A stretch of DNA of 64,000 nucleotides from Planctomycetia bacterium (GTDB lineage Bacteria > Planctomycetota > Planctomycetia > Pirellulales > JALHLM01), in the NCBI GenBank assembly GCA_034440135.1, contig JAWXBP010000317.1, positions 1 through 64,000 of the forward strand. The letters are read 5' to 3'. A program made the translations under genes and the position numbers. Positions 32,767 through 50,923 of this stretch are shown piece after piece. Each line of letters begins with the position of its first letter. The first letter of the stretch is position 1. The notes under the pieces are model-generated. The model was not told the origin of the DNA, did not search any database, and worked only from the letters and a program-made list of their open reading frames with translations.

Positions 32767-32877
32767 CTCCCGGCGGGGTATGATGGAGGATGCCGGGTGC
32801 GACTTTGCCGACCAGGCAAGATATTGCGCCCGCCAGACGGCACGTTTGATATATCCCCCCTGATCGAGGAGTCCCGG

Positions 32878-33930: not shown

Positions 33931-34801
33931 GGCCATCCGCCGCATCGGCCGGCTGGAGCTACGGGCACGCCACGTGGTCGAGGGATTTCTCTCGGGCATC
34001 CATCGCAGTCCGTACTTTGGGCGCTCCATCGAGTTCCTGCAGCACCGCCAATACGTGCGCGGCGACGACGTGCGCCACATCGACTGGAAAGTCTGGGGCA
34101 AGCAGGATCGGCTGTACATCAAGCAGTATGAAGAGGAAACGAACCTCCGTTGCACGCTGCTGGTCGACGTCTCCAAGTCGATGCGTTACGGCCAGGGGGC
34201 CATGACGAAGTACGACTACGCGGCCACAATCGCCACCAGCCTGGCGTACTTGCTGCTGCGTCAGCAGGACGCCGTAGGGTGCGTGGCCTTCGACGCGATT
34301 GTGCGCAGCACAATGCCATTACGCAGCAAACGCAATCACCTGATGAGCATCGTTAAGGCGCTCGAGGCCAACGATCCGTCGGAAAAAACCGACATGGGCA
34401 AGGTGCTGCGCCACGCCGCGGAGACGTTTCCCGCGCGCGGCATGATGGTGCTGATTTCCGACTTGCTCTGCGATCGCGAGAAGTTGTTTCAGGGCCTGCG
34501 GATGTTGGAACAGCGCGGGCACGACGTGCTCGTGTTCCACGTGATGGACGACGACGAGCTCGATTTTCCGTTCAGCGGCCCGACGCGCTTCGACGGACTG
34601 GAAACCGACGACCGGATTCATTGCAACCCGCGCGCCTTACGCGACGGATACATGCAGGCGCTCGAGGCGTTTCTGGAGGAAGTCCGGCTGGGCGCGGCCC
34701 GCTATCGTTGCGACTACGCGTTGTTCCGCACGAGCGATCCTTTGGACGCGGCGCTGGCCCGCTTTTTGACCCACCGCACGGCGATTCATCACCACCAGTG
34801 A
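33899..34801 (+). CDS. DUF58 domain protein (VWA-like partner of MoxR)
   Basis: 300 aa. The DUF58 signature [18 protein letters not shown] is present, followed by a VWA-like strand with an intact MIDAS motif DVSKS (Asp90, Ser92, Ser94). DxSxS usually binds Mg2+ with a partner's acidic residue. No membrane helix is seen, so the protein probably acts in the cytoplasm with MoxR. The start overlaps the moxR-type gene; the stop is shared with the GTG of the next gene (GTGA). Confidence 0.92.
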
Positions 34802-37014
34802 TTCCCACGTTTCTCAACTCCGGGCTGTTGCTGGGGGGCGCGATCTTCGCGCTCGTCGCGCTCCCGGTATTGATTCACCTCATCAACCTGGTGCGCCGCC
34901 GGCGGATCGAATGGGCGGCGATGGAGTTCCTGCTCGCCAGCCAAAAGAAAAACAGCCGCTGGATTCTATTGAAGCAATGGCTGTTGCTGCTGTTGCGCGT
35001 GCTGGCCGTGGCGGCCGTGATTCTGATGCTGGCGCAGCCGCTCGTGCAGAACCGCGTGGGGCGCTGGTTCGGTGCTTTGGTGACGCACCACATTGTGTTG
35101 GTCGACGACACGTATTCCCAGTCGGATCGTTGGGCGAATACGTCCGGCATCGGCGAGGCGAAGCGCGCGATCGAACGCCTGACGCGGCAGATGACAGCCT
35201 CGTCGCAGCGGCAGACGTTCACGTTACTTCGCGCGTCGGAAACGCAGCATGCCAATGGGCGGCCGCTGCCGGATCTGTACCGCGTGCCGGTCGACGACCG
35301 CTTTTCCGAACGCATCACGGCCGCGCTGGAACAGCTGGAGCCGAGCGAAATGGACGTCGCGCCCGCGCAATCGCTGGAGGCACTCTCCAAGCTGCTGGCA
35401 GACCAGACCGACGAAAATCGGGTGATCTACTTGCTCTCCGATTTCCGCACGAAGGATTGGGACGATCCGCGCCCCGCGCGGGAATGGCTTGATCGTTTCG
35501 CCGACGACGGGGCGAAGCTGCATCTGGTGCGCACCATCGACGAAGCGCGGCCGAACCTGGCGGTCAGCGGTCTCACGGCGCTGCCGGGCATTCGCGCCGC
35601 GGGCGTGCCGCTGGCGATGGAAGTCACGGTGACGAATTTCTCGCCGAACCCAGCGCGGCAGGTTTCGGTGCTGTTGCAGGAAGACGGCAAGGCGCGGCCG
35701 GCGCTCGTGATTGACGAGATCGCGGCGGAAGGTTCCGAACGCCGCCGGTTCCCGGTGTTCTTCGGCACGGCCGGCGAACACGTCGTGACCGCGGCGCTCG
35801 AAGCAGACGGCGTCGACGCCGACAATCATCGCCACGCGGTGATTGATTTCCCGCTGACGCTGGAAGTGCTGCTGGTCGACGGCGATCCGGCCGCCAAGGA
35901 CGCGCGGTTTCTCGCTACGGCCTTCGCTCCCGGCGGCGGCGTGAAGACTGGCATCGACGCGCGGATCGAAACGACCACGTATTTGAATCGCGAACCGCTC
36001 GCGCGCTTCCGGGCGATCTACCTGACCAACCTGGAACGGCTCGACGACGCCGCGATCAACGCGCTCGAGCAGTACGTGCGCGACGGCGGCGCGTTGATCT
36101 ATTTCACCGGTGCGCGAACCGTCCCGAGTTTCGTGAACGACTCGCTCTACAAGAATGGCGAGGGTTGGTTTCCGGCCCCCGTGGGCGACGCGACGGCGCT
36201 CCCCGTGAACCGGTTGGACAAGGCGGCCGACCTGGAATTCGTCGATCACCCGATGTTCCGCGTGTTCGCCGGCGAGCGAAACACATTCATCAGTGCAGTG
36301 AACGTGGAAAAATACACGGCGGTCGCACCGGGATGGGAACCGGCCAAGGACGGTCCCACGCAAGTCATCGCTCGCTTGCGCAACGGCGCGCCGCTGGTGA
36401 TCGAACGGCGCTTCGGCGCTGGGCGCGTAACCGCGGTGCTCACCACCGCGAGCACCGATTGGAACAACTGGGCGAGGAACCCCAGCTATGTCGTGGCGAT
36501 GCTGGAAATGCAAGCGCATCTGACCGCCGAGGCGAAACCCCAAGACGCGCGGCTCGTTGGCCAAGGGATCGACTTGAACCTCGATGGCGCGACGTACGGA
36601 ACGCGGCACCGCATGATCGCGCCGGCGCGTGCGGGACAGATCATCGAAACCTTCGATGCGCGCACGCGCGGCGATCGACTGGAACTGACGATCCCGGAGA
36701 CCCGCCGCAGCGGCATCTATGAAATCGAGTTGGCCGAAACGAGCGGCGCGACGAATATGCGCCGCTTCGCCGTGAACGTCGCACCGGGCGAGGGCGACCT
36801 CCGCGCACTGGATCGGCAAGACCTGGCGACGCGTTTGCCGGAACTCGAATACGATTTCAGCCAGGCCGGAGACATCGAACAGCGCACCGAAAGCCTGGCC
36901 GGCATCCCGCTGGCGAGCAGCTTCTTGTACGGGCTGATCGTGCTGTTGCTGGCCGAGCAGGCCTTGGCCTACGCGGTGAGCTATCACGCTCCGCAACGGG
37001 GGGCCGCACGATGA
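34798..37014 (+). CDS. BatA-domain membrane protein with VWA-like and amidotransferase-like regions
   Basis: 738 aa. The N-terminus FLNSGLLLGGAIFALVALPVLIHLI is split here by position: a first helix at about 5-27 and the basic NLVRRRRIEWAAMEFLL that defines the BatA N-terminal domain, then a second helix (about 61-80). A VWA-like fold begins IVLVDDTYSQSD, where the MIDAS is degraded to DDTYS. A late segment (about 360-500) with LEVLLVDGDPAAKDARF and AIYLTNLERLDD looks like the class I glutamine-amidotransferase-like domain of such proteins. A C-terminal helix (about 705-725) closes it. GTG 34798 overlaps the DUF58 stop by 4 nt; its own stop overlaps the next ATG by 4 nt. Confidence 0.87.
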   Translation: MIPTFLNSGLLLGGAIFALVALPVLIHLINLVRRRRIEWAAMEFLLASQKKNSRWILLKQWLLLLLRVLAVAAVILMLAQPLVQNRVGRWFGALVTHHIVLVDDTYSQSDRWANTSGIGEAKRAIERLTRQMTASSQRQTFTLLRASETQHANGRPLPDLYRVPVDDRFSERITAALEQLEPSEMDVAPAQSLEALSKLLADQTDENRVIYLLSDFRTKDWDDPRPAREWLDRFADDGAKLHLVRTIDEARPNLAVSGLTALPGIRAAGVPLAMEVTVTNFSPNPARQVSVLLQEDGKARPALVIDEIAAEGSERRRFPVFFGTAGEHVVTAALEADGVDADNHRHAVIDFPLTLEVLLVDGDPAAKDARFLATAFAPGGGVKTGIDARIETTTYLNREPLARFRAIYLTNLERLDDAAINALEQYVRDGGALIYFTGARTVPSFVNDSLYKNGEGWFPAPVGDATALPVNRLDKAADLEFVDHPMFRVFAGERNTFISAVNVEKYTAVAPGWEPAKDGPTQVIARLRNGAPLVIERRFGAGRVTAVLTTASTDWNNWARNPSYVVAMLEMQAHLTAEAKPQDARLVGQGIDLNLDGATYGTRHRMIAPARAGQIIETFDARTRGDRLELTIPETRRSGIYEIELAETSGATNMRRFAVNVAPGEGDLRALDRQDLATRLPELEYDFSQAGDIEQRTESLAGIPLASSFLYGLIVLLLAEQALAYAVSYHAPQRGAAR

Positions 37015-39707
37015 ACCTCCCCATGTTATTGCTAGCGCAAACCACGCCCCGCGCGGAGTTCGAGTTCGCGCGGATTTCTACGCCCAGCGATTGGCTCTGG
37101 CCGGTGCTGGGGTTCTGCGCCGTGGCTGGCGTCGTGGCTTGGATTTATCGCCGCGACAGCGTGGAACTGCGCCCGGCTGTGGCGCGCTTGCTGGTGGCGC
37201 TCCGCCTGGCGGCGTTCCTGGGCTTGGCCATCGTCTACCTCGAACCGCAATGGCGCAACGAAGTGGAGCAGACGCACCACAGCCGCGCCGTGGTGCTGGT
37301 CGACACCAGCCAAAGCATGGCGCTCACCGACGACGGCGGCACGTCGACCGATGGCGGCGCGAGTTCGCGATTGGAACAAGTGACCGGACTGCTCGCCGGT
37401 TCGATGTTGGATAAACTGCGCGAGAAGCACGACGTGGTCGTCGCGCATTTCGATGATGAAGTGCATCAACTCGTGGTGTTGCCGCGCGCCGGATCGACGT
37501 CGTCCGCGGCCGTGACGGCCCGAACCAGTGGCATCGTCGATTCGCGCCTGCCAACAGTCTTCTACGCAACGGTCGCCGCCGCAGTGCTGGCGATCGTCGC
37601 AATTGCGTGCCGCCTGGCGTTGCCGCATTGGTCGTTGACCGTCACGTCGCTCGTCGCGATGATCGGCCTGAGCGCCGGCGTCGCGTATCTGGCGTCGCGC
37701 TCGCAGCCCATCGATTGGCTCACGCTCGCGGGGCTGGGACAAGAAATCGAAACGCCAGCGACGGAACGTTCGCCCACGGACCAAGACAAAGCAAACAAAG
37801 CGAATACCACCGATTGGCGACAAGCGCTCGCGGCAGGCGGATCGGAAACGCGATTGGGCCAATCGCTGCGGCAAGTCATCTACGACGAAGCCGGGCAACC
37901 ACTATCCGGCGTCGTGCTGATCACCGATGGGCGACAAAACGCGGGACTCGATCCCCGCGCGGCGATTGCCGCGGCGCTCGAGGCGAAGACGCCGGTGCAT
38001 GTGATCGGCGTCGGTTCCGATCGCCAGCCGGTCAACGTGCGGATCAGCGACTTCACCGCGCCGACGCGCGCCTTTCCCGGCGACAGTTACACCGCCACCG
38101 GCTTCGTGCAAGCGCACGGCCTGGCCGGACAGACGGTGACGATTGAACTGCAATCGCGACAAACGACCTCGGACCTCGCCGCGCCGGCGCCGTCGCGCAA
38201 CGAGGGGACCGAAACGGTGACGTTGCCCGCCGACGGCGAAGTGCTGCCGGTGCGGTTTCAATTGAAACCGGAAGACGTCGGCCGCCGCACGTTGCGCGTG
38301 GAAGTCAAAGCGCCGCCCGGCGACTTGAATACGGCTGACAACGCGCAAGAGGCCGAGATCGAAGTCGTCGATCGACAGACCCGCGTGTTGCTGTTTGCCG
38401 GCGGGCCGACGCGGGAATACACCTTCCTGCGTAATCAATTGAATCGCGACAAGTCGATGCAAGTCGACGTACTGCTACAGACCGCGCAGCCGGGCATTTC
38501 GCAAGACGCGCGCCGCGTGCTGGCGGATTTTCCTTCGACGCGCACTGAGATGTTCGAGTATGACGTCGTCGTGGCGTTCGATCCGAACTGGCGAGCCCTC
38601 AAGCCGGAACAAGTCGATCTGCTGGAAACCTGGGTCGCCGAACAAGCCGGCGGATTGATCGCCGTGGCGGGCCCCGTTTACACCGAAGGCTGGTCGCAAG
38701 ATCCGGCGCTCGGCAAGATCCGCGCGCTCTATCCGGTGGAAATGCAACGTCGCTACGCGGCGCTCAGCGACGCGAAGTACGGCTCGAAAGATCCTTGGCC
38801 GATTGAGTTTTCACACGAGGGCGAAGCGGCGGAGTTCCTTTGGCTGGCCGACACCGCTTCCGCGGCGCGCCAGGCTTGGAGTCAGTTCCGCGGCGTCCAC
38901 GGTTACTTCGCCGTCCGCGGCGCGAAGCCCGGGGCCACGGTCTATGGCCGCTACTCCGACCCCCGCGCGGCCTCGACCGACGGCAAGCCGGTCTATCTGG
39001 CGGATCAGTTCTACGGTTCGGGGCGCGTGTTCTACCTCGGCAGCGGCGAGATGTGGCGGCTGCGGAGCGTGGACGACGCGTACCTGGAGCGCTTTTACAC
39101 GAAACTGATTCGCCACGTCTCCCAGGGGCGCCTAGCCCGCGGTTCCAATCGCGGCGTACTGCTCGTGGAGCGCGACCGCTACCTGGTCGGCAACACCGTC
39201 GTGGTCCGCGCTCAATTGAACGATGCGCAGTTGCAGCCGCTCGCTTCGCCGGCGGTGTCGCTCGACGTCGCCGCGCCGGATGGCACGCTCCAGAACGTGC
39301 GGTTGGTCGCGGATCCCGCCCGTGTGGGAAGTTTTCAAGGACAATTCGCCGTGCGTCACGAGGGGGCGTATCGGCTGGAACTGTTGGTCCCACAGAGTCA
39401 GCAGGAACGGCTCACGCGGCGGATTCAAGTGCGTATGCCGGACTTGGAACGCGAAAGCCCGGAACGAAACGACGCGTTGCTGAGTGAAATCGCCGGCGGC
39501 ACCGGCGGCGTCTATTACGTGGGACTCGCCGCGCCGTTCAGCCGCCCGGTCGGAGAGGACCTGGCCAGCGTGTTGAAAGACAAGAGCCGCGTAGTGACCC
39601 TGCCGCTCGCGCCGCGCAAGCTGTGGGACAACCACTGGCTGCTCGGCTGGGTCGTGGGAGCGCTTTCGTTGGAATGGTTGGTACGAAGATTGTCTCGACT
39701 CGCCTAA
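37011..39707 (+). CDS. Membrane VWA / amidotransferase-like protein
   Basis: 898 aa. Hydrophobic helices at about 28-45 and 60-80 precede a VWA domain starting AVVLVDTSQSMALTDDGG, with an intact MIDAS (DTSQS). Two further helices interrupt the VWA domain at about 183-203 and 210-230, and the VWA continues with SGVVLITDGRQNAGLDPRAA. A second half has a GATase1-like region (VLLFAGGPTREYTFLRN, YDVVVAFDPNWRAL, AGGLIAVAGPVYTE) and a beta-rich end. A last helix (HWLLGWVVGALSLEWLV) anchors the C-terminus. It forms with the two upstream proteins the membrane partner set expected for MoxR. Confidence 0.87.
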   Translation: MNLPMLLLAQTTPRAEFEFARISTPSDWLWPVLGFCAVAGVVAWIYRRDSVELRPAVARLLVALRLAAFLGLAIVYLEPQWRNEVEQTHHSRAVVLVDTSQSMALTDDGGTSTDGGASSRLEQVTGLLAGSMLDKLREKHDVVVAHFDDEVHQLVVLPRAGSTSSAAVTARTSGIVDSRLPTVFYATVAAAVLAIVAIACRLALPHWSLTVTSLVAMIGLSAGVAYLASRSQPIDWLTLAGLGQEIETPATERSPTDQDKANKANTTDWRQALAAGGSETRLGQSLRQVIYDEAGQPLSGVVLITDGRQNAGLDPRAAIAAALEAKTPVHVIGVGSDRQPVNVRISDFTAPTRAFPGDSYTATGFVQAHGLAGQTVTIELQSRQTTSDLAAPAPSRNEGTETVTLPADGEVLPVRFQLKPEDVGRRTLRVEVKAPPGDLNTADNAQEAEIEVVDRQTRVLLFAGGPTREYTFLRNQLNRDKSMQVDVLLQTAQPGISQDARRVLADFPSTRTEMFEYDVVVAFDPNWRALKPEQVDLLETWVAEQAGGLIAVAGPVYTEGWSQDPALGKIRALYPVEMQRRYAALSDAKYGSKDPWPIEFSHEGEAAEFLWLADTASAARQAWSQFRGVHGYFAVRGAKPGATVYGRYSDPRAASTDGKPVYLADQFYGSGRVFYLGSGEMWRLRSVDDAYLERFYTKLIRHVSQGRLARGSNRGVLLVERDRYLVGNTVVVRAQLNDAQLQPLASPAVSLDVAAPDGTLQNVRLVADPARVGSFQGQFAVRHEGAYRLELLVPQSQQERLTRRIQVRMPDLERESPERNDALLSEIAGGTGGVYYVGLAAPFSRPVGEDLASVLKDKSRVVTLPLAPRKLWDNHWLLGWVVGALSLEWLVRRLSRLA

Positions 39708-39787
39708 GAGCCACACGAACACACAACAGATAGAGCCGGAAGCGTCAGCGCCCGGAGCGGTTCATCCCGAAACTCATTGCCCCGAAC

Positions 39788-41980
39788 ATGCCCGCACCTG
39801 CTTCACCTTTGATCGGTCCCACGCTCGGCGAGATTCTGCGCCGATTGCGGCGGAGAATCCGCGTCCAGGTGTTGCTGTATGGGTTGGCAAGTCTCGTGCT
39901 GTTGGCCGGTCTGGTGTTCTGGCTGTCGCTGGCCATCGACTGGACGTTCGAGCCGCCGCGCGAAGTGCGAATCGGCGTGATCGTCGTGGCACTCGCCGCA
40001 GGCGTCGCGGTCATCTATGCCCTTATATTGCGACGGTTATTCGTGCCGTTATCGGATGCGAACCTGGCGTTGTTGCTGGAGCGCAAGTTTCCGCAGTTCA
40101 AAGACGGCCTGATCACGGCCGTGCAATTGGCTGCGCGCCGCTCCACCGGCATGTGGCATCAGCAGATGCTGGCGGAAACGATCGGCCGGGCGCGCGAGAC
40201 GTTGCGCGCCGCCGATTTGGACGCCGTATTGAACGCCGCGCCGACCGTGCGTCGTGGCGTCTGGGCGACCGTGCTCACCGGCAGTGTGATGGTCTTCGCC
40301 GTGGCGATGCCCGATCAATTCCGCGTCTGGCTGGAGCGCTCGCTGCGACTGAGCGAGGCGCGTTGGCCCCGGTATACGTCGCTGCACGTGGTGGGCTTGG
40401 GCCCTGACAACTCCATCAAAGTGGCGCGCGGCGGCGACGTGGCGCTCGTCGTGCAGGCCGACGTTGCGAAGCAAGTGCCGCGCACGGTGGAGATCCGCTA
40501 CGAGACCGAAGACGGCGCGCGGGGCCGCGAACCGATGGATCGCGTCGGCCGCGCAATTCCCGGCCAGGATCCGTTCCAGGAGTTCGGTTACACGTTCGCC
40601 GGCGTGCTCACGTCGCGGACGTTCGACGTGCTGGGGGGCGACGACCGCATCGACGACTTGCGGATTCAAGTCGTCGATATGCCGACGCTCGAAGGCATGA
40701 CGCTGGAGTGCGACTTTCCCGATTACACAGGGCGCAGCACGCGCACGCTCGCCGCGGCGGGCGCGATCCAATTGCCGCAAGGGACCCGCGTCACGCTCGA
40801 CGCCACGGCCAGTAAGCCGCTCGAATGGGCCGAGGTGACCATCGCCTCGGGGCGCGACTCCTTGAACGCCGAGCGCGTCACGCCGGACCAGCAATCGCCG
40901 CGGAAGTTTCAAATCGCGCTCGAAGCGCTCACGTCGGACACGACGTTGTTGATTCGCCTGCGCGATACCGACGGCATCGAGAACCGCGAGCCGCTACGCG
41001 TGGCGATGACGGTCGTGCCGGACGGCCCGCCGCAGATCAACGCGCAACTCGCCGGAATCGGCACCGCTGTCACGCCCCAGGCGCAGTTGCCGATGCGCGG
41101 CGCGATCAACGACGACTACGGCGTGGCCGATGCGCGGTTCGAGTACGCCGTCGGCGACGAAGCGCCGCGCGAGCAAATAGTCTTCAAGCACGAGGCGGAC
41201 GCGGCGCAGCCCGCCGCGCAGCGCCCGTTGGACGCGGCGCTCGATTTGCGCGAACTGGGACTTGCGCCAGGACAAAAACTCGCGGTTGGGCTCCGTGCTC
41301 GGGATAACTTCGCTTTAGCGGATGCGCCGCATGACGCGACGGGCGAACGCTATGTGCTGGATATCGTGACCGCCGAAGACTTGCTTCAGTTGCTGCAGAC
41401 GCGAGAATTAGGGATGCGGCGTCGCTTTGAGACCTTGCTCGACGAGGCGACCTCGCTGCGCGACAGCTTGCCGGCATTGGCGGACGCCAAGGATCAGGCC
41501 CAGACGGCCGACGACGCCCAGGTCGGGCTGGCGCTGGCCATCCAACGGATGGTGCAGTTGAGCCGCAAGGACGCACAGGAGACGTTGGGCGTGGCGGGGG
41601 CCTTCGCCGACATGCGGGAAGAGCTGGACAATAACCGGATCGACAACAGCGAACTGAAAGACCGGCTGCAAACGCGGATCGCCGACCCGTTGCGACGCTG
41701 CGGCGAGGAGATGTTCGGGGAACTGGACCGGAGATTGGAATTGATCCGCACCGCCGCGGCGGACGACAATGCACGGCGCGAGGCGGTCGAAGGAGCGGTG
41801 CAGCAGGCCGACGCGATCCTGCTGGAAATGCAGCGGGCGCTCGACCAGATGCTGGAACTGGAAAGTTTGAACGAGGCGGTGGCCCTGCTCCGCGAAATCA
41901 TCGCGTCGCAGGACCAGGTAACCGAGTCGACCAAGCAACGCCGGACCGAAAAAGCCCGGCAGTTGCTCGAAGGGGAATAA
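39788..41980 (+). CDS. DUF4175-like membrane protein
   Basis: 730 aa. Two N-terminal helices (about 30-55 and 60-82) and one at about 158-176 are followed by beta-rich Ig-like domains (about 195-490; YETEDGARGREPMDRV, MTLECDFPDYTGRSTRTL, VVPDGPPQINAQLAGIG). Long coiled-coil helices make up the last 200 residues (MLELESLNEAVALLREI). The architecture matches DUF4175-type proteins that lie next to MoxR/VWA genes. No catalytic motif is visible. It begins 80 nt after the VWA gene and ends 19 nt before the next. Confidence 0.75.
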   Translation: MPAPASPLIGPTLGEILRRLRRRIRVQVLLYGLASLVLLAGLVFWLSLAIDWTFEPPREVRIGVIVVALAAGVAVIYALILRRLFVPLSDANLALLLERKFPQFKDGLITAVQLAARRSTGMWHQQMLAETIGRARETLRAADLDAVLNAAPTVRRGVWATVLTGSVMVFAVAMPDQFRVWLERSLRLSEARWPRYTSLHVVGLGPDNSIKVARGGDVALVVQADVAKQVPRTVEIRYETEDGARGREPMDRVGRAIPGQDPFQEFGYTFAGVLTSRTFDVLGGDDRIDDLRIQVVDMPTLEGMTLECDFPDYTGRSTRTLAAAGAIQLPQGTRVTLDATASKPLEWAEVTIASGRDSLNAERVTPDQQSPRKFQIALEALTSDTTLLIRLRDTDGIENREPLRVAMTVVPDGPPQINAQLAGIGTAVTPQAQLPMRGAINDDYGVADARFEYAVGDEAPREQIVFKHEADAAQPAAQRPLDAALDLRELGLAPGQKLAVGLRARDNFALADAPHDATGERYVLDIVTAEDLLQLLQTRELGMRRRFETLLDEATSLRDSLPALADAKDQAQTADDAQVGLALAIQRMVQLSRKDAQETLGVAGAFADMREELDNNRIDNSELKDRLQTRIADPLRRCGEEMFGELDRRLELIRTAAADDNARREAVEGAVQQADAILLEMQRALDQMLELESLNEAVALLREIIASQDQVTESTKQRRTEKARQLLEGE

Positions 41981-41999
41981 CTCTCGGGAGGACCGACTG

Positions 42000-43820
42000 A
42001 TGACCGCTCGCTATGTCGCCGTCGCCCTATTGCTCAGCGCAATCTTCATCGCGCCAGCGGGTGTCGTGTGGGCGCAAGCGCCGGCCGCGGAACCAGCCGC
42101 TCCGGCGGCCCCCGCCGCGCAGCCCGGCGCGGCCTTGCCGGATCGCCAGCAACAGGTGGCGCAGCAATTCAAGCAGCTCGAAGCGGTGCTGTTGCGGATG
42201 GCGGAATTGACCGACGATCCGCAGCGCGCGGCGCTGTTGCGCAAGGCGGTCGCGCAGAGCAAGAATCAATTGATTGGCGAACAGCTCGCCGAGATCGCAC
42301 AGTTGTTGGAGCAAGATCGCCTGGCCAACGCGCTCACGGATCAGGGCGAAGTGCGCGTCGACATGGTGAAGTTGCTGGAGTTGCTCTTAAGCGAAGACCG
42401 CGGGCAGAACCTCGACGAGGAAAAGCGCCGGTTGCAGCAGTGGATTCGCGAGATCGGCAATCTGATCAAGGACCAGCAAGGCTTGCAGGGGGAAACCGAG
42501 GGCGGTTCGGAAACGAAGGACCTCGCGGAGCGGCAAGGCAAGCTCGGCGAGAAGACCGGCCGCATGTCGGATGAAATCAAGGCAGCCGAAGACCGCGAAC
42601 GCGGTGAAGCCAACCCGAGCGCAGAGTCATCCGGCGATTCCAACAAACAGCCTGCGAATGGCGAAGCGCCCAAGCCGGAAGACAAGCCGGCGACGGACGA
42701 AGGCAAACCCGGCGACGATGCGAAACCGACAGAGCCAGCCGATGATGAAAAGCCGTCGGATGACAAACCCGCCGATGGCAAGCCGACCGATGGAAAGCCA
42801 GCGGACGGAAAGCCGAGTGATGGCAAGCCCAGCGAGGGAAAACCATCCCAGGGAGAGCCATCCGAATCGGAACCGTCCGAAGGGCAACCCTCCGAGGGGC
42901 AACCGAGCGAAGCGCCGCCGAGCCAAGGACAACGCTCGCAGGGCGAGCCCTCCGAGACGCCGCTGGGCGATCCGCAACCGGCGGAGGAGCAACCGCAGAA
43001 TCCCACGCAGCAACGGTTGAAGTCCGCACAGCAACGGATGGAAGCGGCACAGAAAAAACTAAAGGACGCGCAACGCAAAGAGGCGACCGAAGATCAGGAA
43101 GCGGCGATCCGCGAATTGCGCGAGGCCAAGGCGGAGCTGGAAAAGATTCTCCAACAACTGCGCGAAGAAGAGATGCAGCGCACGTTGGCGATGTTGGAAC
43201 AACGTTTCCGCAAGATGCTCGCGGCGCAGATCGACGTCTACGAGGCCACGCAACGGCTCGATAGCGTGCCGCTCGAACAGCGGACGCGGAACGACGAAAT
43301 CGAAGCCGGTCGCCAGAGCCGACGTGAGGCGAGCATCGCCGACGACGCCAGGCGCGCGCTGGAATTACTGAAACAGGACGGCACCGCGGTGGCGTTTCCG
43401 GAAGCGGTCGAGCAATTGATCGAAGATATGGACCAAACCACGACCTGGCTGGGCGAAGCCAAGGTCGGTGAACTGACGCAGGCCATGGAGCAGGACATCA
43501 TCGCCGCGCTCGAAGAAATGTTGGCCGCGCTCGAAAAAGCCCAGCAAGACTTGGAGCAAAAGCAACAGCAATCTGGAGAGCAGCAGCAACAGGGAGAGCC
43601 GGAGGAGCCGCCGCTGGTGGATTCTCTGGCCGAAATCAAGTTGATTCGCTCGCTGCAGATGTGGGTCAACAAGCGCACGATGTTCTACAGCAAACGCCTG
43701 GACGGCAAGCTGCCTGCGGAAGAGCAGCAGGACGTTGAAGCAGGCCTGCGGAAACTGGCGGAACGCGAGCAGCGCATTTACGAAACCACGCGCGACATCG
43801 CCCAGGAGAAAAACCAATGA
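42000..43820 (+). CDS. Exported coiled-coil protein with a GKP-type low-complexity linker
   Basis: 606 aa with signal peptide (MTARYVAVALLLSAIFIAPA then AGVVWAQ). Helical, Gln- and Glu-rich stretches (about 45-195 and 340-600) flank a linker at about 200-335 built of tetra- and pentapeptides: KPADGKPTDGKP, then KPSEGKPSQGEPSE and PSEGQPSEGQPSE. The linker is rich in Pro, Ser, Glu and Lys and should be extended and disordered. The RBS GGAGG is 8 nt before the ATG. I recognise no family. Position inside the MoxR/VWA cluster and the ATGA overlap with the next gene suggest a structural part of the same machine. Confidence 0.8.
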   Translation: MTARYVAVALLLSAIFIAPAGVVWAQAPAAEPAAPAAPAAQPGAALPDRQQQVAQQFKQLEAVLLRMAELTDDPQRAALLRKAVAQSKNQLIGEQLAEIAQLLEQDRLANALTDQGEVRVDMVKLLELLLSEDRGQNLDEEKRRLQQWIREIGNLIKDQQGLQGETEGGSETKDLAERQGKLGEKTGRMSDEIKAAEDRERGEANPSAESSGDSNKQPANGEAPKPEDKPATDEGKPGDDAKPTEPADDEKPSDDKPADGKPTDGKPADGKPSDGKPSEGKPSQGEPSESEPSEGQPSEGQPSEAPPSQGQRSQGEPSETPLGDPQPAEEQPQNPTQQRLKSAQQRMEAAQKKLKDAQRKEATEDQEAAIRELREAKAELEKILQQLREEEMQRTLAMLEQRFRKMLAAQIDVYEATQRLDSVPLEQRTRNDEIEAGRQSRREASIADDARRALELLKQDGTAVAFPEAVEQLIEDMDQTTTWLGEAKVGELTQAMEQDIIAALEEMLAALEKAQQDLEQKQQQSGEQQQQGEPEEPPLVDSLAEIKLIRSLQMWVNKRTMFYSKRLDGKLPAEEQQDVEAGLRKLAEREQRIYETTRDIAQEKNQ

Positions 43821-44869
43821 GACCGCTGGCTCTCCTCATGGTCGCGGCGGCGCTCGGCGGTACTTCCATCGCCTTGGCCGCCAATGAAACCACGACAAAG
43901 TCCTTGCGCGCGTCCACTTCGGACGAAGCGAAGGGCCAATTGTTCGCCTGGCTCGATGCGCAAAACGCGTCGCCGGAGTTGCGGCTCCAAGTGGAAACGC
44001 AATGGGCGGAGTCCGAAGCCTCGACCGGCGATTTGCTGGAGCGCGTAGCGCGCGCCATTGCGATCGTCGACGAGCGCGCTCGCCCGCTGTTGGAATCCAG
44101 CCAGGCCGCGGCGCTGCGAGCGCCGTTACCGGACATCGCCTGGCTGCAAGCGGCGGACGTGGCGCCGTTCATGAGCAACAACTTGCGTCTATGGTACGGC
44201 CGGTCGCTCGCGCAGCGCGAATATTACGACGAATCCTCGGCGCTGCTCACCGACCTGGAACCGCGCAACGTCGTCGACCCGGCCGCGCTGTTGTTCTATC
44301 AAGCGGTCGTGCATCAAAGGCTGCTCGCCAAGGACCCGGGCTTGAAAGCGATCGACGCCTTGCTGGACGATGTCGATGCCGCGCCGCGGCGATACTTGAA
44401 GCTCGCCGCGTTGCTGCGCACCGATCTCGCTGCGCTCGAAGACGAATCGCTCGAACATATTTCGCGGCGGATGGAGAACATCGAACGCCACCTTGGTTTG
44501 GGCCGGACAGACCAGAAAGTTCGCGACATCGAAGACGGCGTGATCGAGTCGCTCGACAAGATGATTAAGAAGCTCGAAGACCAAGCGAAACAAGCGGCGC
44601 AGTCCTCAGGAAAAGGCGGCCAGCAATCGGGCCGCGCGCAAGGAATTAAGCCCGGCGGTAGTCCGGCGCAACAGAGCACGCCAGCGGGCGGCCGGGGCGC
44701 CGGCGAGGTCAATCCTCGCGATCTGGGAAGCGAAGACGGCTGGGGCAACCTGCCGCCGAAGGAACGCGAAGAAGCCTTGCAACAAATCGGTCAGGATTTC
44801 CCGGCTCACTACCGCGACGTAATTGAGCAATACTTTCGCAAGCTCGCGGACGAGGGACGGGAGAACTAA
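43817..44869 (+). CDS. Exported helical protein of unknown function
   Basis: 350 aa. A signal peptide (MRPLALLMVAAALGGTSIALA) is followed by helices about 30-240, including LWYGRSLAQREYYDESSALL, which looks like a TPR-like hairpin. A Gly/Gln/Ser-rich linker (about 262-300) and a C-terminal PPKEREEALQQIGQDFPAHY helix ending YRDVIEQYFRKLA follow. That last element occurs at the C-terminus of many planctomycete proteins in this kind of cluster (recollection). The start overlaps the previous stop (ATGA). Confidence 0.78.
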   Translation: MRPLALLMVAAALGGTSIALAANETTTKSLRASTSDEAKGQLFAWLDAQNASPELRLQVETQWAESEASTGDLLERVARAIAIVDERARPLLESSQAAALRAPLPDIAWLQAADVAPFMSNNLRLWYGRSLAQREYYDESSALLTDLEPRNVVDPAALLFYQAVVHQRLLAKDPGLKAIDALLDDVDAAPRRYLKLAALLRTDLAALEDESLEHISRRMENIERHLGLGRTDQKVRDIEDGVIESLDKMIKKLEDQAKQAAQSSGKGGQQSGRAQGIKPGGSPAQQSTPAGGRGAGEVNPRDLGSEDGWGNLPPKEREEALQQIGQDFPAHYRDVIEQYFRKLADEGREN

Positions 44870-44933
44870 GCGAAGAGCCTCGGCCGCGAACTACTATTCC
44901 TTCTAGCTACGACCACGACTCCACATAATTCCC

Positions 44934-46124
44934 ATGCATAACCTGCTCGCCGTACTGCTGCTCGCCGCCGCGCCCAGCGTGGAATTGCGCACCTTGGATG
45001 GGCGGACGCTGGTGGGCGAATTGGAGAACTGCACGGCGACGAGCGTGACGATCAAGACCGCGGACGGCGTCACCGAGTTGGCCGCGGAGGAGGTCTGGGA
45101 GTTCGCGCCGACAGGCAATCGTGAGTTGCCGCGGAGCGCGCCGGAAGGCTTGGTGGTGCGCCTCACCGATGGTTCGCAGCTGGTGGCCGACAAGTTTTCC
45201 GTAAGCGAAGGCAAGGCGACGGCGCGGCTCGCCGGCGATCGAAGTGTCGACGCGCCGACCTCGGGCGTGGCGCATGTGCGTTTCGCGGTGCCGGAAGAAC
45301 TGGACGCACAATGGCAGGAAGTATTGGAGACCAAGGCGACGGGCGATCTAGTCGTGATCAAAAAAGACGGCGCGCTCGATTTTCTGGAAGGCGTGCTGGG
45401 CGATACGGATGACGACGGCGGATTCGCGTTCACGCTCAATGGCGACACGCTCGCGGTGAAGCGCTCGCGAATGGCCGGCATCGTGTACTTTCACAAAGCG
45501 ACCGATCCGCTTCCCAAGGCCGTCGCCATCGTTAGCGACGTGTTTGGCAATCAGTTTTCCGCGTCGGAAATCAAATTGGAAGCTGGCGTCCTCTGCGGTG
45601 CGACGCCGTCCGGCGCCGCTTGGTCTGTGCAATTGGAACAACTCCAGCGCGTCGATTTCTCGCAAGGGCGCGTGGCCTATCTCAGTGATTTGACGCCGGT
45701 CCGCGATACTTGGACGCCGTTCGTCAGCGGCGGGAAGCTGCCGAAGTCGGTCGCCGCGTTCTATGCCGCGAAGCGCGACCGGAGCCTCGAGGCGCAGGAT
45801 TTGCTCGTCGGTGGTCAGCGCTACGTGAAGGGATTGTCCCTGCACAGCCGAAGCGAAGTGGCGTATCGATTAGACGGACAGTACCGCCGATTCCAGGCGT
45901 TGGCCGGCATCGACGACCGCGCCGCGGGCTTGGGAGCGGTGCGTTTGGTCATTCGCGGCGACGATCGCGTATTATGGGAAGGGGAGATTGCCGGCGCCCA
46001 ACCGCCGGAAATGCTCAATTTCGCGACGGACGATGTGCGCGTGTTGAGCATTCTCGTCGACTTCGGGGCAGGCCACGAAACGGCCGACCATTTGAACCTG
46101 TGCGACGCCAAGCTAATCCGCTGA
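44934..46124 (+). CDS. NPCBM/NEW2-domain exported protein
   Basis: 396 aa. The first 15 residues (MHNLLAVLLLAAAPS) are a short export signal. Residues 15-245 are beta-rich with two SH3-like units (VELRTLDGRTLVGELEN, VVRLTDGSQLVADKFS). Residues about 255-396 match the NPCBM galactose-binding-like domain: GGQRYVKGLSLHSRSEVAYRL in shortened form, FQALAGIDDRAAGLGAVRLVI and a final HLNLCDAKLIR. NPCBM domains bind carbohydrate beside glycosidases. It is 64 nt after the previous gene and 13 nt before the protease gene. Confidence 0.83.
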   Translation: MHNLLAVLLLAAAPSVELRTLDGRTLVGELENCTATSVTIKTADGVTELAAEEVWEFAPTGNRELPRSAPEGLVVRLTDGSQLVADKFSVSEGKATARLAGDRSVDAPTSGVAHVRFAVPEELDAQWQEVLETKATGDLVVIKKDGALDFLEGVLGDTDDDGGFAFTLNGDTLAVKRSRMAGIVYFHKATDPLPKAVAIVSDVFGNQFSASEIKLEAGVLCGATPSGAAWSVQLEQLQRVDFSQGRVAYLSDLTPVRDTWTPFVSGGKLPKSVAAFYAAKRDRSLEAQDLLVGGQRYVKGLSLHSRSEVAYRLDGQYRRFQALAGIDDRAAGLGAVRLVIRGDDRVLWEGEIAGAQPPEMLNFATDDVRVLSILVDFGAGHETADHLNLCDAKLIR

Positions 46125-46137
46125 CCAGGGTGATTCG

Positions 46138-47907
46138 ATGAAACAGAGCTACGCCGCTGGAATCATCGCCGCAGCCTTGCTGGCCGCCGCGCCGGTGGCG
46201 CACGCCGACGTCGATCCCACGGTACTGGACGCCGAGCGGGAACGCATCGAGGCGATGAGCCGGGCGATGTCCCCGTCGATCGCCATTTTCGCCGGCGGCC
46301 AAGGGGGCGGGTCCGGCGTGATTATCTCCACGGACGGCTACGCGCTCAGTAACTTCCACGTAACGAGCGCCGCCGGCAACGCGATGAAATGCGGCCTCTC
46401 CGACGGCGGGTACTACGACGCGGTGCTCGTGGGCCTCGATCCCACCGGCGACGTGGCGCTGATTAAAGTCTTGGGACGCGAACGCTTCCCCGCCGCGGAA
46501 CTCGGCGATAGCGATCTGGTGCGGCAAGGGGACGCGGTCTTCGCCATTGGCAATCCGTTCCTGCTGGCGACCAACTTGCAGCCGTCGATTTCGTATGGCA
46601 TCGTCTCCGGCGTGCATCGCTATCAGTATCCGGCCGGCACGATCCTGGAATACGCCGATTGCATCCAGACCGACGCCGCGATCAACCCCGGCAATTCCGG
46701 CGGGCCGCTGTTCAACAGCAGCGGGCAGTTGATTGGCATCAATGGCCGCGGTTCGTTCGAAAAGCGCGGCCGTGTCAACGTCGGCGTAGGCTACGCGATT
46801 TCGATCAACCAGATCAAGCATTTTCTCGGTTGCTTGAAGGGAGGACGGATCGTCGATCACGCCACGCTCGGCGCGACCGTGGCGGCCGATGACGATGGCC
46901 GGATTCTGGTGAGCGATATTCTCGAAGAGAGCGACGCCTATCAACAAGGCCTGCGCTACAACGACGAAATCGTCCGCTTCGCCGATCGTCGCATCGCCTC
47001 GGTGAACGCGTTCAAAAATGTGCTCGGAACGCTGCCGAAAGATTGGCGAGTCCCGTTGGTGTATCGCCGTCGTGACGTCGAAACGACGCTGATGGTCCGC
47101 CTGGCCGGTGTGCATCGCAGCGGTGAGTTGGAAAAAATGGTCGAAGGGGGCGAAGTCGAGCCGCCAGGACCGAAACCTGACGATCCAGACCAAGAACGAA
47201 AGCCCGACGCTCCGCCAGCGCCGAAGGAGATTCCCGCGGCCGAACAGGAACCGTCGACCGAACTGCCCGAAGCGGTGAAGCCGTTTTACGAAGCCAAGTC
47301 GGGCTATGCCAATTACCACTTCAATCGCGTCGAGCGCGATCGCGTTTGGAAAGCGTTTCAGTCGAATGGTGATTTCTCCGCGCTGACCGGCACCTGGTCG
47401 TTGAGCGGCGATCTGCCGACCGGCGGTGAAGTGCAGTTCGATCTCGGCGACGCCGCCTGTGCCTGCACGGTGCCGGCAGGGCAATTCGGTTTCGCGCTCA
47501 ACGAAAACTTGAGCGAGGCGCTCGATCCTCCCAGAAGCGGCGGCATGCTGGCGGCGCTCTCGCTGTGGCGGCGATTGCTCGTGAAAGGGCCGGCGCAGTT
47601 CGGCGACGTCACTTACCTGGGCGCGATGCCGCTGGAGCGCTGGGGCGAACAACTCGACGTCTTCGCCGCGATGCATGCCGGCGTGGAATGCCGGTTCTAT
47701 TTCGAACCGACGACGGGCCAACTTGCCGCGCTCGAGTTTTACCCCACCGACGACGCGGCGCCGTGCCGCTTGCATTTCCGTGAGCATTTGGTCGTCGACG
47801 GAAGGCATTGGCCGAGCTTTGTCGAGGTCTCGTTCGGCAGCACGCATTTCGGGGACTTCCGTTTGAAGGAGTTCAGAGTCAAGCCGCCGATGGGGAACGG
47901 AACATGA
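46138..47907 (+). CDS. HtrA/DegP-like trypsin-type protease with PDZ and an extra C-terminal domain (active triad)
   Basis: 589 aa. Signal peptide (about 1-23, ending PVAHA). The S1C protease domain has a full triad: His74 in ALSNFHV, Asp105 in DPTGDVALI and Ser187 in NPGNSGGPL. One PDZ domain follows (about 250-320, GRILVSDILEESDAYQQG). A Pro/Asp/Lys-rich linker (about 340-385) leads to a unique 200-residue C-terminal domain with ATG-proximal FYEAKSGYANYHFNRVERDR, a Cys pair (DAACACTV) and beta strands; I do not recognise it. The gene's stop overlaps the start of the next protease-like gene by 4 nt. It is the only one of three paralogues that can be catalytic. Confidence 0.9.
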   Translation: MKQSYAAGIIAAALLAAAPVAHADVDPTVLDAERERIEAMSRAMSPSIAIFAGGQGGGSGVIISTDGYALSNFHVTSAAGNAMKCGLSDGGYYDAVLVGLDPTGDVALIKVLGRERFPAAELGDSDLVRQGDAVFAIGNPFLLATNLQPSISYGIVSGVHRYQYPAGTILEYADCIQTDAAINPGNSGGPLFNSSGQLIGINGRGSFEKRGRVNVGVGYAISINQIKHFLGCLKGGRIVDHATLGATVAADDDGRILVSDILEESDAYQQGLRYNDEIVRFADRRIASVNAFKNVLGTLPKDWRVPLVYRRRDVETTLMVRLAGVHRSGELEKMVEGGEVEPPGPKPDDPDQERKPDAPPAPKEIPAAEQEPSTELPEAVKPFYEAKSGYANYHFNRVERDRVWKAFQSNGDFSALTGTWSLSGDLPTGGEVQFDLGDAACACTVPAGQFGFALNENLSEALDPPRSGGMLAALSLWRRLLVKGPAQFGDVTYLGAMPLERWGEQLDVFAAMHAGVECRFYFEPTTGQLAALEFYPTDDAAPCRLHFREHLVVDGRHWPSFVEVSFGSTHFGDFRLKEFRVKPPMGNGT

Positions 47908-48947
47908 TGCCACGAGGCGCTAAAATCGAGTTGCGGCGCGCATGGCTTTGCGCGGTGGCGCTCTGCGCGTTAGGCGTGCAACATGCATCGGCGGCGCCGC
48001 TAGCCGACGTCGTGGAAAGCGCGCAACCAAAAATCGCCAAGCTCTACGGCGCTGGTGGCCTGCGCGGATTGGAAGCCTATCAAAGCGGCGTCGTCATCTC
48101 TCCTTCCGGGCATATTCTCACCGTGTGGAGCTACGTCCTCGACGCCGAATCGATCACCGTCGTGTTGAACGACGGTCGCCGCTTTGAAGCGGAGTTGGCC
48201 GGCGCGGATCCCAAATTGGAAATCGCAGTGCTGAAGCCGCGCGAGGAGTTAGACGAGATTCCGTACTTCGATCTGGAACAAGCTCCTTCGGCGGGCGGCG
48301 GCACGCGCATCGTTGCGTTTAGCAATTGTTTCGGCGTCGCCGCTGGCGATGAAGCGGCCAGCGTGCAAGCCGGCACCGTGATGGCGGTGACACCGCTCAA
48401 CGCGCATCGAGGCGTCTTCAAGGCGACCTATCGCGGACCGGTCTATGTGTTGGACGCCGTGACGAGCAACCCCGGTGCAGCCGGAGGCGCGATTACCGAC
48501 GACGATGGACACTTGGTCGGCTTGATCGGGCGCGAGCTGCGCAACTCGGCTAACGGAACCTGGCTCAACTACGCGCTCCCGATCGAAGAATTGCGCGCGT
48601 CGGTGACGCGTATTCAAGCGGGCGAACTCGCGCCGGCGCAACCGATCGCGCCTAACAACGTCGGCGCGGCCAATCCGTTTAAGCTCGCCACGTTGGGCAT
48701 CGTGCTGGTGCCGGACGTGTTGGATCGCACGCCGGCCTATGTGGATGCCGTCGTCGCCGGATCGCCGGCCGCCAAAGCGGGGCTCAAGCCGGACGATTTA
48801 TTCGTTACGATCAGCGGCCGCTTGGTGCAATCGCGCGGCTTGATGGAAGAAGAGCTCGCGCGCTGCGAAGCGGACAAGCCCATCAAAGTCACTGTGCTGC
48901 GCGGTGACGACGAATTGCTGGAACTGGAGTTGACGCCGACGCCCTAG
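47904..48947 (+). CDS. HtrA-like pseudoprotease with PDZ (all three triad residues replaced)
   Basis: 347 aa. A signal segment (about 10-31) is followed by an S1C-type fold: YQSGVVISPSGHILTVWSYV, then ADPKLEIAVLKP, then SNPGAAGGAITDDDGHLVGL. At the catalytic positions, His is Ser76, Asp is Glu106 and Ser is Ala193; the flanking glycine and hydrophobic framework is conserved. One PDZ domain ends the protein (about 255-345, YVDAVVAGSPAAKAGLKPDD). The conserved fold with lost catalysis argues for binding, scaffolding or regulation. The ATG overlaps the stop of the active protease (ATGA), so the two are co-made. A longer frame upstream is rejected because it lies inside the previous gene. Confidence 0.88.
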   Translation: MMPRGAKIELRRAWLCAVALCALGVQHASAAPLADVVESAQPKIAKLYGAGGLRGLEAYQSGVVISPSGHILTVWSYVLDAESITVVLNDGRRFEAELAGADPKLEIAVLKPREELDEIPYFDLEQAPSAGGGTRIVAFSNCFGVAAGDEAASVQAGTVMAVTPLNAHRGVFKATYRGPVYVLDAVTSNPGAAGGAITDDDGHLVGLIGRELRNSANGTWLNYALPIEELRASVTRIQAGELAPAQPIAPNNVGAANPFKLATLGIVLVPDVLDRTPAYVDAVVAGSPAAKAGLKPDDLFVTISGRLVQSRGLMEEELARCEADKPIKVTVLRGDDELLELELTPTP

Positions 48948-48958
48948 GCCGCCACCGC

Positions 48959-50923
48959 ATGAAATGCTTGAACTCGAAAACGCCCGCGATCCTCGTCATG
49001 TGCTGTGCCCTGAGCGCACTTGCGCACGCGGCCATCGCTCAGGATGATCTCTCCGCCAAGGAAGAGGCCGCCCTGCGCGCTGCTGTCGCCCAGGTCGCGT
49101 CGAGCGTGGTGAAGATCGAAGCTCTGGGTGGCCTGGAAAAAGTCGGCGACGTCCTGTTGGGCGACGGTCCCACGACCGGGCTGATTGTTACCCCGGACGG
49201 CTACATCGTCTCGAGCATCTTCAATTTCGCACAAAAGCCTGCATCGATCTTGGTCACGTTGCCGGACGGCACGCGCACGCCGGCCACTTGGGTTGCTGCC
49301 GATAAGAGCCGGATGCTGGTGCTGCTCAAAGTGAACGCTGCCACGCCGTTGTCGGTAGCGGAAGCCAGTCCCTTGGCCGATCTCCGTCCGGGGCAATGGG
49401 CGATCGCCGTGGGACGCACGTTCGATACCTCGCTGCCGCAGTATTCCGTAGGCATTGTGAGCGCGCTCGATCGCATCTGGGGCAAAGCCGTCCAGACCGA
49501 CGCGATGGTCTCGCCGAACAACTACGGCGGGCCGCTCGTGGATATCCAAGGGCGCGTGATCGGCGTGCTGGCGCCGTTTTCGCCGGATGCCGCCGGAGAG
49601 TCAGCGGGCGTCGAGTGGTATGACTCCGGGATTGGCTTCGCCGTGCCTTATGAGCACATCCAGCAGGCGTTGCCGCGACTGCGCGAAGGAAAGGATCTCA
49701 CGTCCGGCGTGCTGGGCATCAGCTTGAAGTCTAAGGACATCTACGGCGAGCCGCCGCTGATCGCCATCTGCCGTTCCGATTCGCCGGCCTACCAGGCCGG
49801 GTTGCGCGTCGGCGATCGCATCGTGGCGATTGACGGCCGCGCGGTCGACTCTCAGGCCGAGGTGAAGCACGCCATCAGCCCGCGATACGCTGGCGATAGC
49901 TTGCAAGTGAAAGTCGCACGGGGCGACGCGGAGTTCGAGCGCGCGATCACGCTGATCGAAAAGCTGAAACCCTACCGCCACGCGTTTCTCGGCATCTTGC
50001 CGCGCCGTGACGTCGGCGAGGATGGCGTCCGCGTCCGTTTCGTCTATCCCGACAGCCCCGCGGCGAAAGCGGGCATGCAGATCGATGATCGCCTCGTTTC
50101 CATCGACGCCGCGCAAGTTGCGGACGCAGCAACAGTGCGCGAACGCTTGAACGGCCTCGCGCCGGAGCAATCGGTACGCGTCGAATTTCGCCGTGGCGAC
50201 AAATCCCACTATCCCGAGATCAAACTCGCGGCGCTTCCCGAAACGGTTCCGGATGCACTGCCTGCTGCGGCCGAGGCGACAGCAGCGGCAGCGGGGGAAC
50301 GGCCGGCCGTGGGACAATTCACGCTGGAGCTGCCGGAGTACCCGAATCGGTCGCGAGTGTACGTGCCTGCCGATTACGATCCTCGGCGCGCTTACGGACT
50401 CCTGGTCTATCTGCATGCGGCGGGTGGCGAGGAAGAACAGCAGACGCTCGACCGTTGGAAAGCGATGTGCGATCGCGACAGCTTGATCTTGCTTGCACCC
50501 CAGGCGACAGAACCCAAGCGTTGGCAGCCGGAGGAATTGCCGTACATTCGCCGCGCCGTGGAGCACATCACCGGACGTTACACGATCGACCCATCGCGGA
50601 CCGTGGCCGTGGGGCGTGAAATGGGCGCTTCGCTGGCCTACCAACTCGGCTTCCAGCAACGCGATTTGTTCCGCGGCGTGGCGGCCATCGACGGCCCATT
50701 CGCGGCGCGGCCGACCGACAACGATCCGGCCGAGCGCCTGGCGTTTTATGTCGCCTTCGCCAAATCCTCCCCGCACGCCGGCATCTCGGTGAAGGCCATC
50801 GAAATGTTGCGCGAATTGCACTATCCTGTCACCACGCGCGACCTCGGCGACGCCCCGCGCGAGCTGAACGAGACGGAACTCGGCGAACTCAGCCGGTGGA
50901 TCGATACCCTGGATAAGCTGTAG
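48959..50923 (+). CDS. HtrA-like pseudoprotease with two PDZ domains and a degenerate alpha/beta-hydrolase domain
   Basis: 654 aa. Signal segment about 8-27. The trypsin-like domain has DGYIVSSIFNF, ADKSRMLVLLKV and SPNNYGGPLVD; at the triad positions His is Phe88, Asp is Met119 and Ser is Tyr189. PDZ 1 (about 250-335) reads SPAYQAGLRVGDRIVAIDGR, PDZ 2 (about 340-425) SPAAKAGMQIDDRLVSIDAA. Residues about 455-654 are an esterase-type alpha/beta-hydrolase: YGLLVYLHAAGGEEE, DPSRTVAVGREMGASLAYQL. The nucleophile elbow is GREMG, with Glu554 instead of Ser. Both enzymatic folds thus look dead. It starts 11 nt after the second protease-like gene. Confidence 0.87.
   Translation: MKCLNSKTPAILVMCCALSALAHAAIAQDDLSAKEEAALRAAVAQVASSVVKIEALGGLEKVGDVLLGDGPTTGLIVTPDGYIVSSIFNFAQKPASILVTLPDGTRTPATWVAADKSRMLVLLKVNAATPLSVAEASPLADLRPGQWAIAVGRTFDTSLPQYSVGIVSALDRIWGKAVQTDAMVSPNNYGGPLVDIQGRVIGVLAPFSPDAAGESAGVEWYDSGIGFAVPYEHIQQALPRLREGKDLTSGVLGISLKSKDIYGEPPLIAICRSDSPAYQAGLRVGDRIVAIDGRAVDSQAEVKHAISPRYAGDSLQVKVARGDAEFERAITLIEKLKPYRHAFLGILPRRDVGEDGVRVRFVYPDSPAAKAGMQIDDRLVSIDAAQVADAATVRERLNGLAPEQSVRVEFRRGDKSHYPEIKLAALPETVPDALPAAAEATAAAAGERPAVGQFTLELPEYPNRSRVYVPADYDPRRAYGLLVYLHAAGGEEEQQTLDRWKAMCDRDSLILLAPQATEPKRWQPEELPYIRRAVEHITGRYTIDPSRTVAVGREMGASLAYQLGFQQRDLFRGVAAIDGPFAARPTDNDPAERLAFYVAFAKSSPHAGISVKAIEMLRELHYPVTTRDLGDAPRELNETELGELSRWIDTLDKL

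Follow-up and report, generated by a model that had tools for sequence, protein, structure and literature searches.

A trio of one active HtrA-type protease gene and two conserved pseudoprotease genes in Planctomycetota

Active and inactive HtrA proteins, and the locus

Textbooks present HtrA proteases as homo-oligomers that are switched through their own PDZ domains: in DegP, DegQ and DegS each subunit is active, and the active site is switched by contacts that PDZ domains and loops make from one subunit to the next. In ClpP/ClpR, catalytic and non-catalytic homologues share one protease complex, which has an unrelated fold, is ATP-dependent and belongs to another compartment. Here we describe three successive HtrA-like genes in a 64,000-nucleotide stretch of DNA from a Planctomycetia bacterium of the order Pirellulales (assembly GCA_034440135.1, contig JAWXBP010000317.1, positions 1 to 64,000 of the forward strand; hereafter the window). 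The first gene (G1) encodes a protease with an intact catalytic triad, and the next two (G2 and G3) encode pseudoproteases with other residues at all three triad sites. We consider it fairly probable that the trio forms a three-part envelope protease, with G1 as the catalytic member and G2 and G3 as non-catalytic partners; ClpP/ClpR would be an analogue of this arrangement in the way that it works.

Pairs of active and inactive HtrA proteins are already known. In magnetotactic bacteria, according to the excerpted text of PMC4794232, the pseudoprotease MamO is needed, without catalysis of its own, for proteolysis by MamE, and its protease domain binds a transition metal through two surface histidines. 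Like the trio, MamE and MamO are HtrA-family proteins encoded in the same genome region, with one active and one triad-less member; unlike it, they include a single pseudoprotease, MamO has a TauE-like C-terminal domain and the genes lie in magnetosome islands (PMC4794232, same excerpt), whereas the trio has two pseudoproteases, occurs in many families of one phylum and accompanies a row of MoxR/BatA genes. Neither G2 nor G3 gave a Pfam match to a TauE-like domain (E <= 0.1), and both stayed below the cut-off of 800 bits for the MamO family NF040961 (35.7 bits for G2, 28.3 for G3). PflC of Campylobacter jejuni is a periplasmic, triad-less protein with an HtrA fold and PDZ domains that forms a lattice and serves as a scaffold of the flagellar motor (PMC12222027, in excerpt); it shares fold, PDZ domains and absence of a triad with G2 and G3 and differs in its role as a motor scaffold, and the excerpt describes no gene row with an active partner. 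Some cyanobacteria have Deg proteases with mutated, inactive peptidase domains, which resemble G2 and G3 in being altered Deg/HtrA proteins; they are named for single species, and the excerpted part of PMC4877387 describes no conserved trio. Two further papers, as far as their excerpts go, treat planctomycete PDZ proteins and inactive serine protease homologues in general (PMC6411480, PMC2605481). A trio of one active and two pseudoprotease HtrA genes with a MoxR/BatA row was not described among the matches listed, which were open-licence PMC papers only; within the literature searched, the conserved trio with its two pseudoproteases and this gene row appears to be new.

The three genes lie on the forward strand. 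G1 (46138-47907, 589 aa) has His74, Asp105 and Ser187 as its triad, G2 (47904-48947, 347 aa) has Ser76, Glu106 and Ala193 at the corresponding sites, and G3 (48959-50923, 654 aa) has Phe88, Met119 and Tyr189, all as the original prediction for this DNA had placed them. That prediction had also spoken of a shared trypsin/PDZ layout and of overlapping or nearly abutting starts, and both descriptions hold: the ATG of G2 shares four bases with the stop codon of G1, 11 bases separate the G2 stop from the G3 start, and all three proteins exceed the Pfam Trypsin_2 cut-off of 27.6 bits (105.5, 72.3 and 71.7 bits for G1, G2 and G3). PDZ_2 matches lie above the Pfam cut-off once in G2 and twice in G3; the PDZ_2 match of G1 in the window is below it (23.9 vs 27 bits), and PDZ_2 is found at E <= 0.01 in each of the 35 G1 orthologues scanned. 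The N-termini of all three proteins are signal-like, as judged by eye.

Both ends of the trio carry additional domains; neither these nor the upstream MoxR/DUF58/BatA row figured in the original prediction. In G1 the PDZ domain is followed by a conserved C-terminal domain of about 200 aa (residues ~385-589; window 47293-47904), for which scanning 35 orthologues with Pfam gave no family, and for which there was no relative of solved structure, apart from a weak DUF4292 match in two of the 35. The C-terminus of G3 (residues ~452-652; window 50300-50920) is an alpha/beta-hydrolase-like domain related to short-chain polyhydroxyalkanoate depolymerases and esterases, and is a relative only, because its scores lie below the family cut-offs (NF050058, 54.6 vs 150; TIGR01840, 19.7 vs 107.85). 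Its site 554, the nucleophile position of the GxSxG motif, is Glu554 in the window and Ser in one of the 101 rows that have a letter there (Gly 31, Glu 23, Gln 20, Lys 11, and others; 17 more rows are gapped). By these residues it is a third dead domain, a conserved pseudoenzyme domain. Since the structural second look at G3 covered mainly residues 28-337, the hydrolase-like label rests on sequence and makes no claim about fold.

The trypsin-like parts of the two pseudoproteases are predicted to keep the HtrA fold, of the DegQ/DegP-like kind. AlphaFold2 modelled G2 and G3 with predicted local distance difference test scores of 86.5 and 89.9; the best structural match of the G2 model was DegQ (4ynn, E 1.1e-22), and the G3 model matched the same structure with E 3.0e-30 (Z 26.9, root mean square deviation 8.0 over 361 residues). 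The trio thus resembles DegP, DegQ and DegS (HtrA family S1C) in the fold predicted for G2 and G3 and in the triad of G1, and differs in scoring far below the curated DegP/DegQ cut-off: the 'Do' subfamily TIGR02037 has a cut-off of 416.2 bits, which was not reached by G1 (211.3), G2 (98.2) or G3 (169).

The triple replacement in G2 and G3 exceeds what chance would give, as most other Trypsin_2 matches in the genome keep their motifs and relatives show the replacements to be fixed. Trypsin_2 matches number 16 in the genome, three of them belonging to the trio; eight of the other 13 have His, Asp and Ser motifs, and the remaining five are weak or partial (three with His and Ser, one partial with His and one not resolved).

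Triad sites and selection across Pirellulales

We followed the triad sites through the order in 120 loci, taken from 132 relatives with a G2 match at E < 1e-40 (we left out genomes G003, G036 and G010, along with nine that matched more weakly), and added the window. G1 and G2 were present in all 120 loci and G3 in 117. All 115 G1 rows with letters at the three sites have His, Asp and Ser; the other six of the 121 rows are fragments with a gap at one or more triad sites. At the His site of G2 all 121 rows have Ser (Ser76 in the window; AGY codons in 117 of the 120 loci, TCN in three). The acid site of G2 has Glu in 100 rows, Asp in 13, Gly in six, and Gln and Arg in one each, and the Ser site has Ala in 95, Pro in 16, Thr in five, Gln in two, and Ser, Val and Gly in one each. 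In the 118 rows of G3 the His site is mostly aromatic (Phe 82, Tyr 18, Val 5, Ile 4, Ala 4, Leu 2, His 2, one gap), and the Ser site is Tyr in 116, with codons TAC and TAT over the 120 loci, and Val and Gln in one each, the Gln row being a contig-end fragment (L122). An intact triad was found in no G2 or G3 orthologue of the order, and no row in the order and window retains even two triad residues (0/121 for G2, 0/118 for G3). A second set of 80 named records, which partly overlaps the order sample and includes Blastopirellula marina DSM 3645 (L204), gives the same picture, with Ser at the G2 Ser site in 0/80, Tyr at the G3 Ser site in 77 of 78 (Trp in the other) and His-Asp-Ser in 70 of 76 G1 records, the remainder being partial or misaligned. 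The claim that every triad residue had been lost stands for the window and is too strong for the family, since 113 of 121 rows of G2 still carry Glu or Asp at the acid site.

Such conservation of the sites, together with the acidic residue in those 113 rows, would also suit G2 or G3 being enzymes still, with a different catalytic arrangement. We regard this as very improbable: one of 121 G2 rows and none of 118 G3 rows have Ser at the Ser site, none and two, respectively, have His at the His site, no row combines the two, and the nucleophile of the hydrolase-like domain of G3 is missing from 100 of the 101 rows with a letter there. The strong conservation of the rebuilt sites in the order can likewise be read as binding of a metal or another small ligand, for which the MamO protease domain, binding metal via two histidines (PMC4794232, in excerpt), is the precedent. 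No His occurs among the positions of G2 and G3 conserved at >=93%, so that a metal site of the MamO type is not seen, and we hold ligand binding to be improbable.

Selection was estimated as the ratio of non-synonymous to synonymous substitution rates (dN/dS, Nei-Gojobori) on the trypsin domain. For the window paired with its closest relative, the ratio is 0.044 for G1, 0.024 for G2 and 0.046 for G3. Among within-genus pairs, which are not independent of one another, 52 have dS between 0.1 and 2 in all three genes; three of these were set aside because they use L122, in which the alignment misreads a contig-end fragment of G3 (ratios of 0.41-1.0 for G3). Over the remaining 49 pairs the medians, computed from rounded values, are 0.053, 0.084 and 0.146 for G1, G2 and G3, and the highest values 0.198, 0.380 and 0.351; with the L122 pairs included, the medians over all 52 are 0.051, 0.098 and 0.163. 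Judged by these ratios, selection on all three genes is purifying, and looser in the pseudoproteases.

The faster evolution of G2 and G3 relative to G1 is what speaks for simple decay of duplicated protease genes, an account to which we give next to no weight. The ratios are far below 1 (<=0.38 in the 49 usable pairs), purifying rather than relaxed; the replacement residues are fixed, with Ser at the G2 His site in every row and Tyr at the G3 Ser site in 116 of 118; the frames are open throughout the order, no row has two triad residues, and the genes occur in numerous families across the phylum. We therefore rejected decay, and the original view of G2 and G3 as conserved pseudoenzymes is borne out by the fixed replacements, the purifying dN/dS and the failure to find an orthologue with an intact triad.

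Distribution and descent of the trio

Within the order the three genes come and go together. We called presence by best E-value (G1 < 1e-45, G2 < 1e-40, G3 < 1e-35) in 146 genomes, the window's own included, and found all three genes in 133, none in 11 and part of the trio in two, namely G1 alone in a genome 77% complete (G064) and G3 alone in one 84% complete (G066). Among the 127 genomes, own included, that are >=90% complete and <=5% contaminated, 119 have all three, eight have none and none has a part. One of those eight trio-less genomes (G081) has a 790-aa frame that joins a pair of pseudoprotease domains, both of the deep type described below, and is followed by an active gene with His, Asp and Ser (L374/L367, contig C316); this fused trio is possibly a second system, or else the assembly may contain a foreign contig. 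Two genomes have a further, divergent copy of the whole trio (G009, contig C12; G046, contig C3), and in another a second G2 and G3 stand at a contig start (G026, contig C778).

The genes also keep their arrangement. In 117 of the 120 loci G1 is followed by G2 and then G3, all on the same strand (in two of the 117, 542 and 1055 bases separate G2 and G3); the remaining three loci have G3 on a different contig, with G2 at a contig end in two of them. In four loci, all of one genus (family f7; L140, L151, L159 and L163), G1 and G2 form a single open frame.

Beyond the order, a G2 profile run over 392 genomes of the phylum matched strongly in f21, one further family of the class; matches from other classes formed a middle tier that stood well clear of ordinary HtrA proteins. 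A G3 profile scored >=205 bits in 67 of the 392 genomes, the next value being 162. From 55 matches outside the order at >=167 bits we took 40 loci (L330, added later, is not counted), in 35 of which all three genes adjoin. Here again G1 has His, Asp and Ser (38/38), G3 has Tyr at the Ser site (35/35) and G2 never has Ser at the Ser site (0/40). G1 and G2 are fused in one open frame in six of the 40, from families f56, f60, f65 and f103 (L293, L302, L304, L306, L307 and L309), which with f7 brings such fusions to five families.

A deeper set of 19 loci from 17 genomes (L311-L329) was picked among the next-scoring matches. Fifteen of them comprise an active gene and two pseudoproteases, with both pseudoproteases ahead of the active gene in 13; the active gene of L320, which is counted among the 15, breaks off before its Ser. 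The remaining four loci begin or end at a contig boundary. Their G3 counterparts have Phe (12), Tyr (5), Asn (1) or Asp (1) at the His site and keep Asp in 16 of 19. From these residues it looks as though loss of the His was a shared, old step and Tyr arrived at the Ser site later. In a locus from another family (L328, 3201-5999), two pseudoprotease domains are fused in a 933-aa frame, with the active gene adjoining.

In one scan of genome contigs with G2, which reached beyond the phylum, the best 80 of 452 confirmed loci were kept; 77 of these are titled Planctomycetota or a subgroup, L199 and L212 bear only the title 'bacterium', and L200 is titled 'Candidatus Nealsonbacteria'. By these profile matches and gene arrangements, the trio is kept over many families of Planctomycetota.

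The age of the three groups was examined with a second tree, of trypsin domains with the triad columns removed, in which 68 of 138 rows were kept and six rows of L311 and L328 left out as long or odd. G3 forms one clade with its deep counterparts (Shimodaira-Hasegawa-like approximate likelihood ratio test [SH-aLRT] support 97), as does G1 with the deep active genes (SH-aLRT 95), and on this tree G1, G2 and G3 are old and distinct groups. A clade of G2 and G3 was not rejected by the approximately unbiased (AU) test (p 0.55 with triad columns removed, 0.76 with all columns and rows); the tree in which they were held together scored slightly above the free quick tree, and in the first tree, with all columns and rows, a branch with a support of 40 had G1 and G2 together on one side. 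The earlier claim that the triad had been lost twice is therefore not supported: a single clade of G2 and G3 is compatible with the data, and one loss of the triad, followed by duplication into G2 and G3, may have occurred.

The gene row and the probable role of the dead copies

In the window the trio closes a row of forward-strand genes (27766-46124). The row begins with a 1666-aa PQQ/BamB-type beta-propeller protein (27766-32766), continues with a MoxR-type AAA ATPase (PF07726; 32797-33930), a DUF58/vWA protein (33899-34801), a BatA-type protein (PF07584; 34621-37014 as the longest open reading frame, the true start of which may be further in), a vWA/MG2-like protein (37011-39707), a conserved hypothetical protein (39788-41980), a conserved hypothetical protein with much low-complexity sequence (u3, 42000-43820) and another (u2, 43817-44869), and ends directly upstream of G1 with an NPCBM-domain protein, a conserved neighbour (44934-46124). 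The row stands upstream of G1 in identical order in all 10 genomes of the order that were selected for the length of their contigs; from MoxR onward it is found in two of four genomes of f21 and two of five middle-tier genomes, and it is partial in the others. Downstream of the trio, past a short hypothetical gene, lies a gene for a gamma-glutamyltranspeptidase (PF01019, 51404-53119).

The association of G2 and G3 with G1 is supported, at the level of genes, by their joint presence and absence, by their adjacency also in another gene order and by the G1-G2 fusions; contact of the two proteins with G1 is what we infer. Because the trio is retained over many families of the phylum, the dead copies are suggested to control, feed or scaffold the live protease.

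A competing account takes G2 and G3 to be HtrA folds reused as scaffold or peptide-binding parts of a MoxR/BatA envelope machine, in the same pathway as G1 and not regulating it. PflC, a triad-less HtrA fold that forms a lattice, is a precedent (PMC12222027, in excerpt), and the tie of the trio to the MoxR/DUF58/BatA row fits as well, as do five of the 17 loci L271-L287 (L277, L279, L282, L286 and L287), in which G3 lies away from G2, elsewhere in the genome. The G1-G2 fusions in five families and the joint loss of G2 with the active gene tie G2 to the protease itself, and we judge the scaffold account to be unlikely, though to be kept in mind.

Those five loci are among a number of observations that weigh against a three-part protease. 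Two of them (L277 and L279) also have no G1 beside G2, and in one single-contig genome with a split trio G3 is 2.9 Mb from G2; within the order, G3 of L079 is on another contig despite 4.4 kb of sequence behind G2. The window-type trio is not universal in the order either, seven good genomes being without it; queried with the 790-aa deep-type frame of G081, those seven gave weak single-domain matches only. Outside the order the replacements vary, with Ser at the G2 His site in 24 of the 40 wider loci and His there still in two, and four of the 19 deep G3 counterparts keep Asp and Ser, having lost His only. The grouping of G2 with its deep counterparts goes no further than a non-rejected clade (AU p 0.55), and the median dN/dS of G2 is about 1.6 times, and that of G3 about 2.8 times, that of G1. 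The sole deep genome tried (L366) has no MoxR/Bat row upstream. Finally, adjacency and joint loss would equally fit three proteins of the same pathway that never touch.

If the three proteins do form one protease, as we favour, the mechanism might be as follows. G2 and G3 would have kept the HtrA fold and PDZ domains and given up catalysis long ago; judging from the signal-like N-termini, all three proteins would be exported, and G2 and G3 would assemble with G1 or act on it. Their PDZ domains and altered groove may bind peptides without cutting them, thereby setting the activity or substrate choice of G1, and as pseudo-subunits they could supply the PDZ and loop contacts that switch a neighbouring active site. 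The principle would be that of MamO, which is required for proteolysis by MamE without having a triad of its own (PMC4794232, in excerpt). The MoxR/BatA machine at the membrane might be a controller or a client of the protease, and the nucleophile-less hydrolase-like domain of G3 could be an additional binding module.

More tentatively, and as a possibility that we would not yet call probable, many families of Planctomycetota may possess a hetero-oligomeric HtrA machine of one catalytic and two distinct pseudo-catalytic subunits, wired in the window's order and class to a MoxR AAA+/BatA membrane complex. Its activity would be set by built-in dead subunits and not by homo-oligomer switching, and it might be powered or gated from the cytoplasm. 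With the trio, nature may have assigned catalysis and regulation to separate genes, and the general question of how a pseudoprotease contributes to an active homologue becomes open to experiment; for the MoxR/BatA genes the trio is a plausible partner in the envelope.

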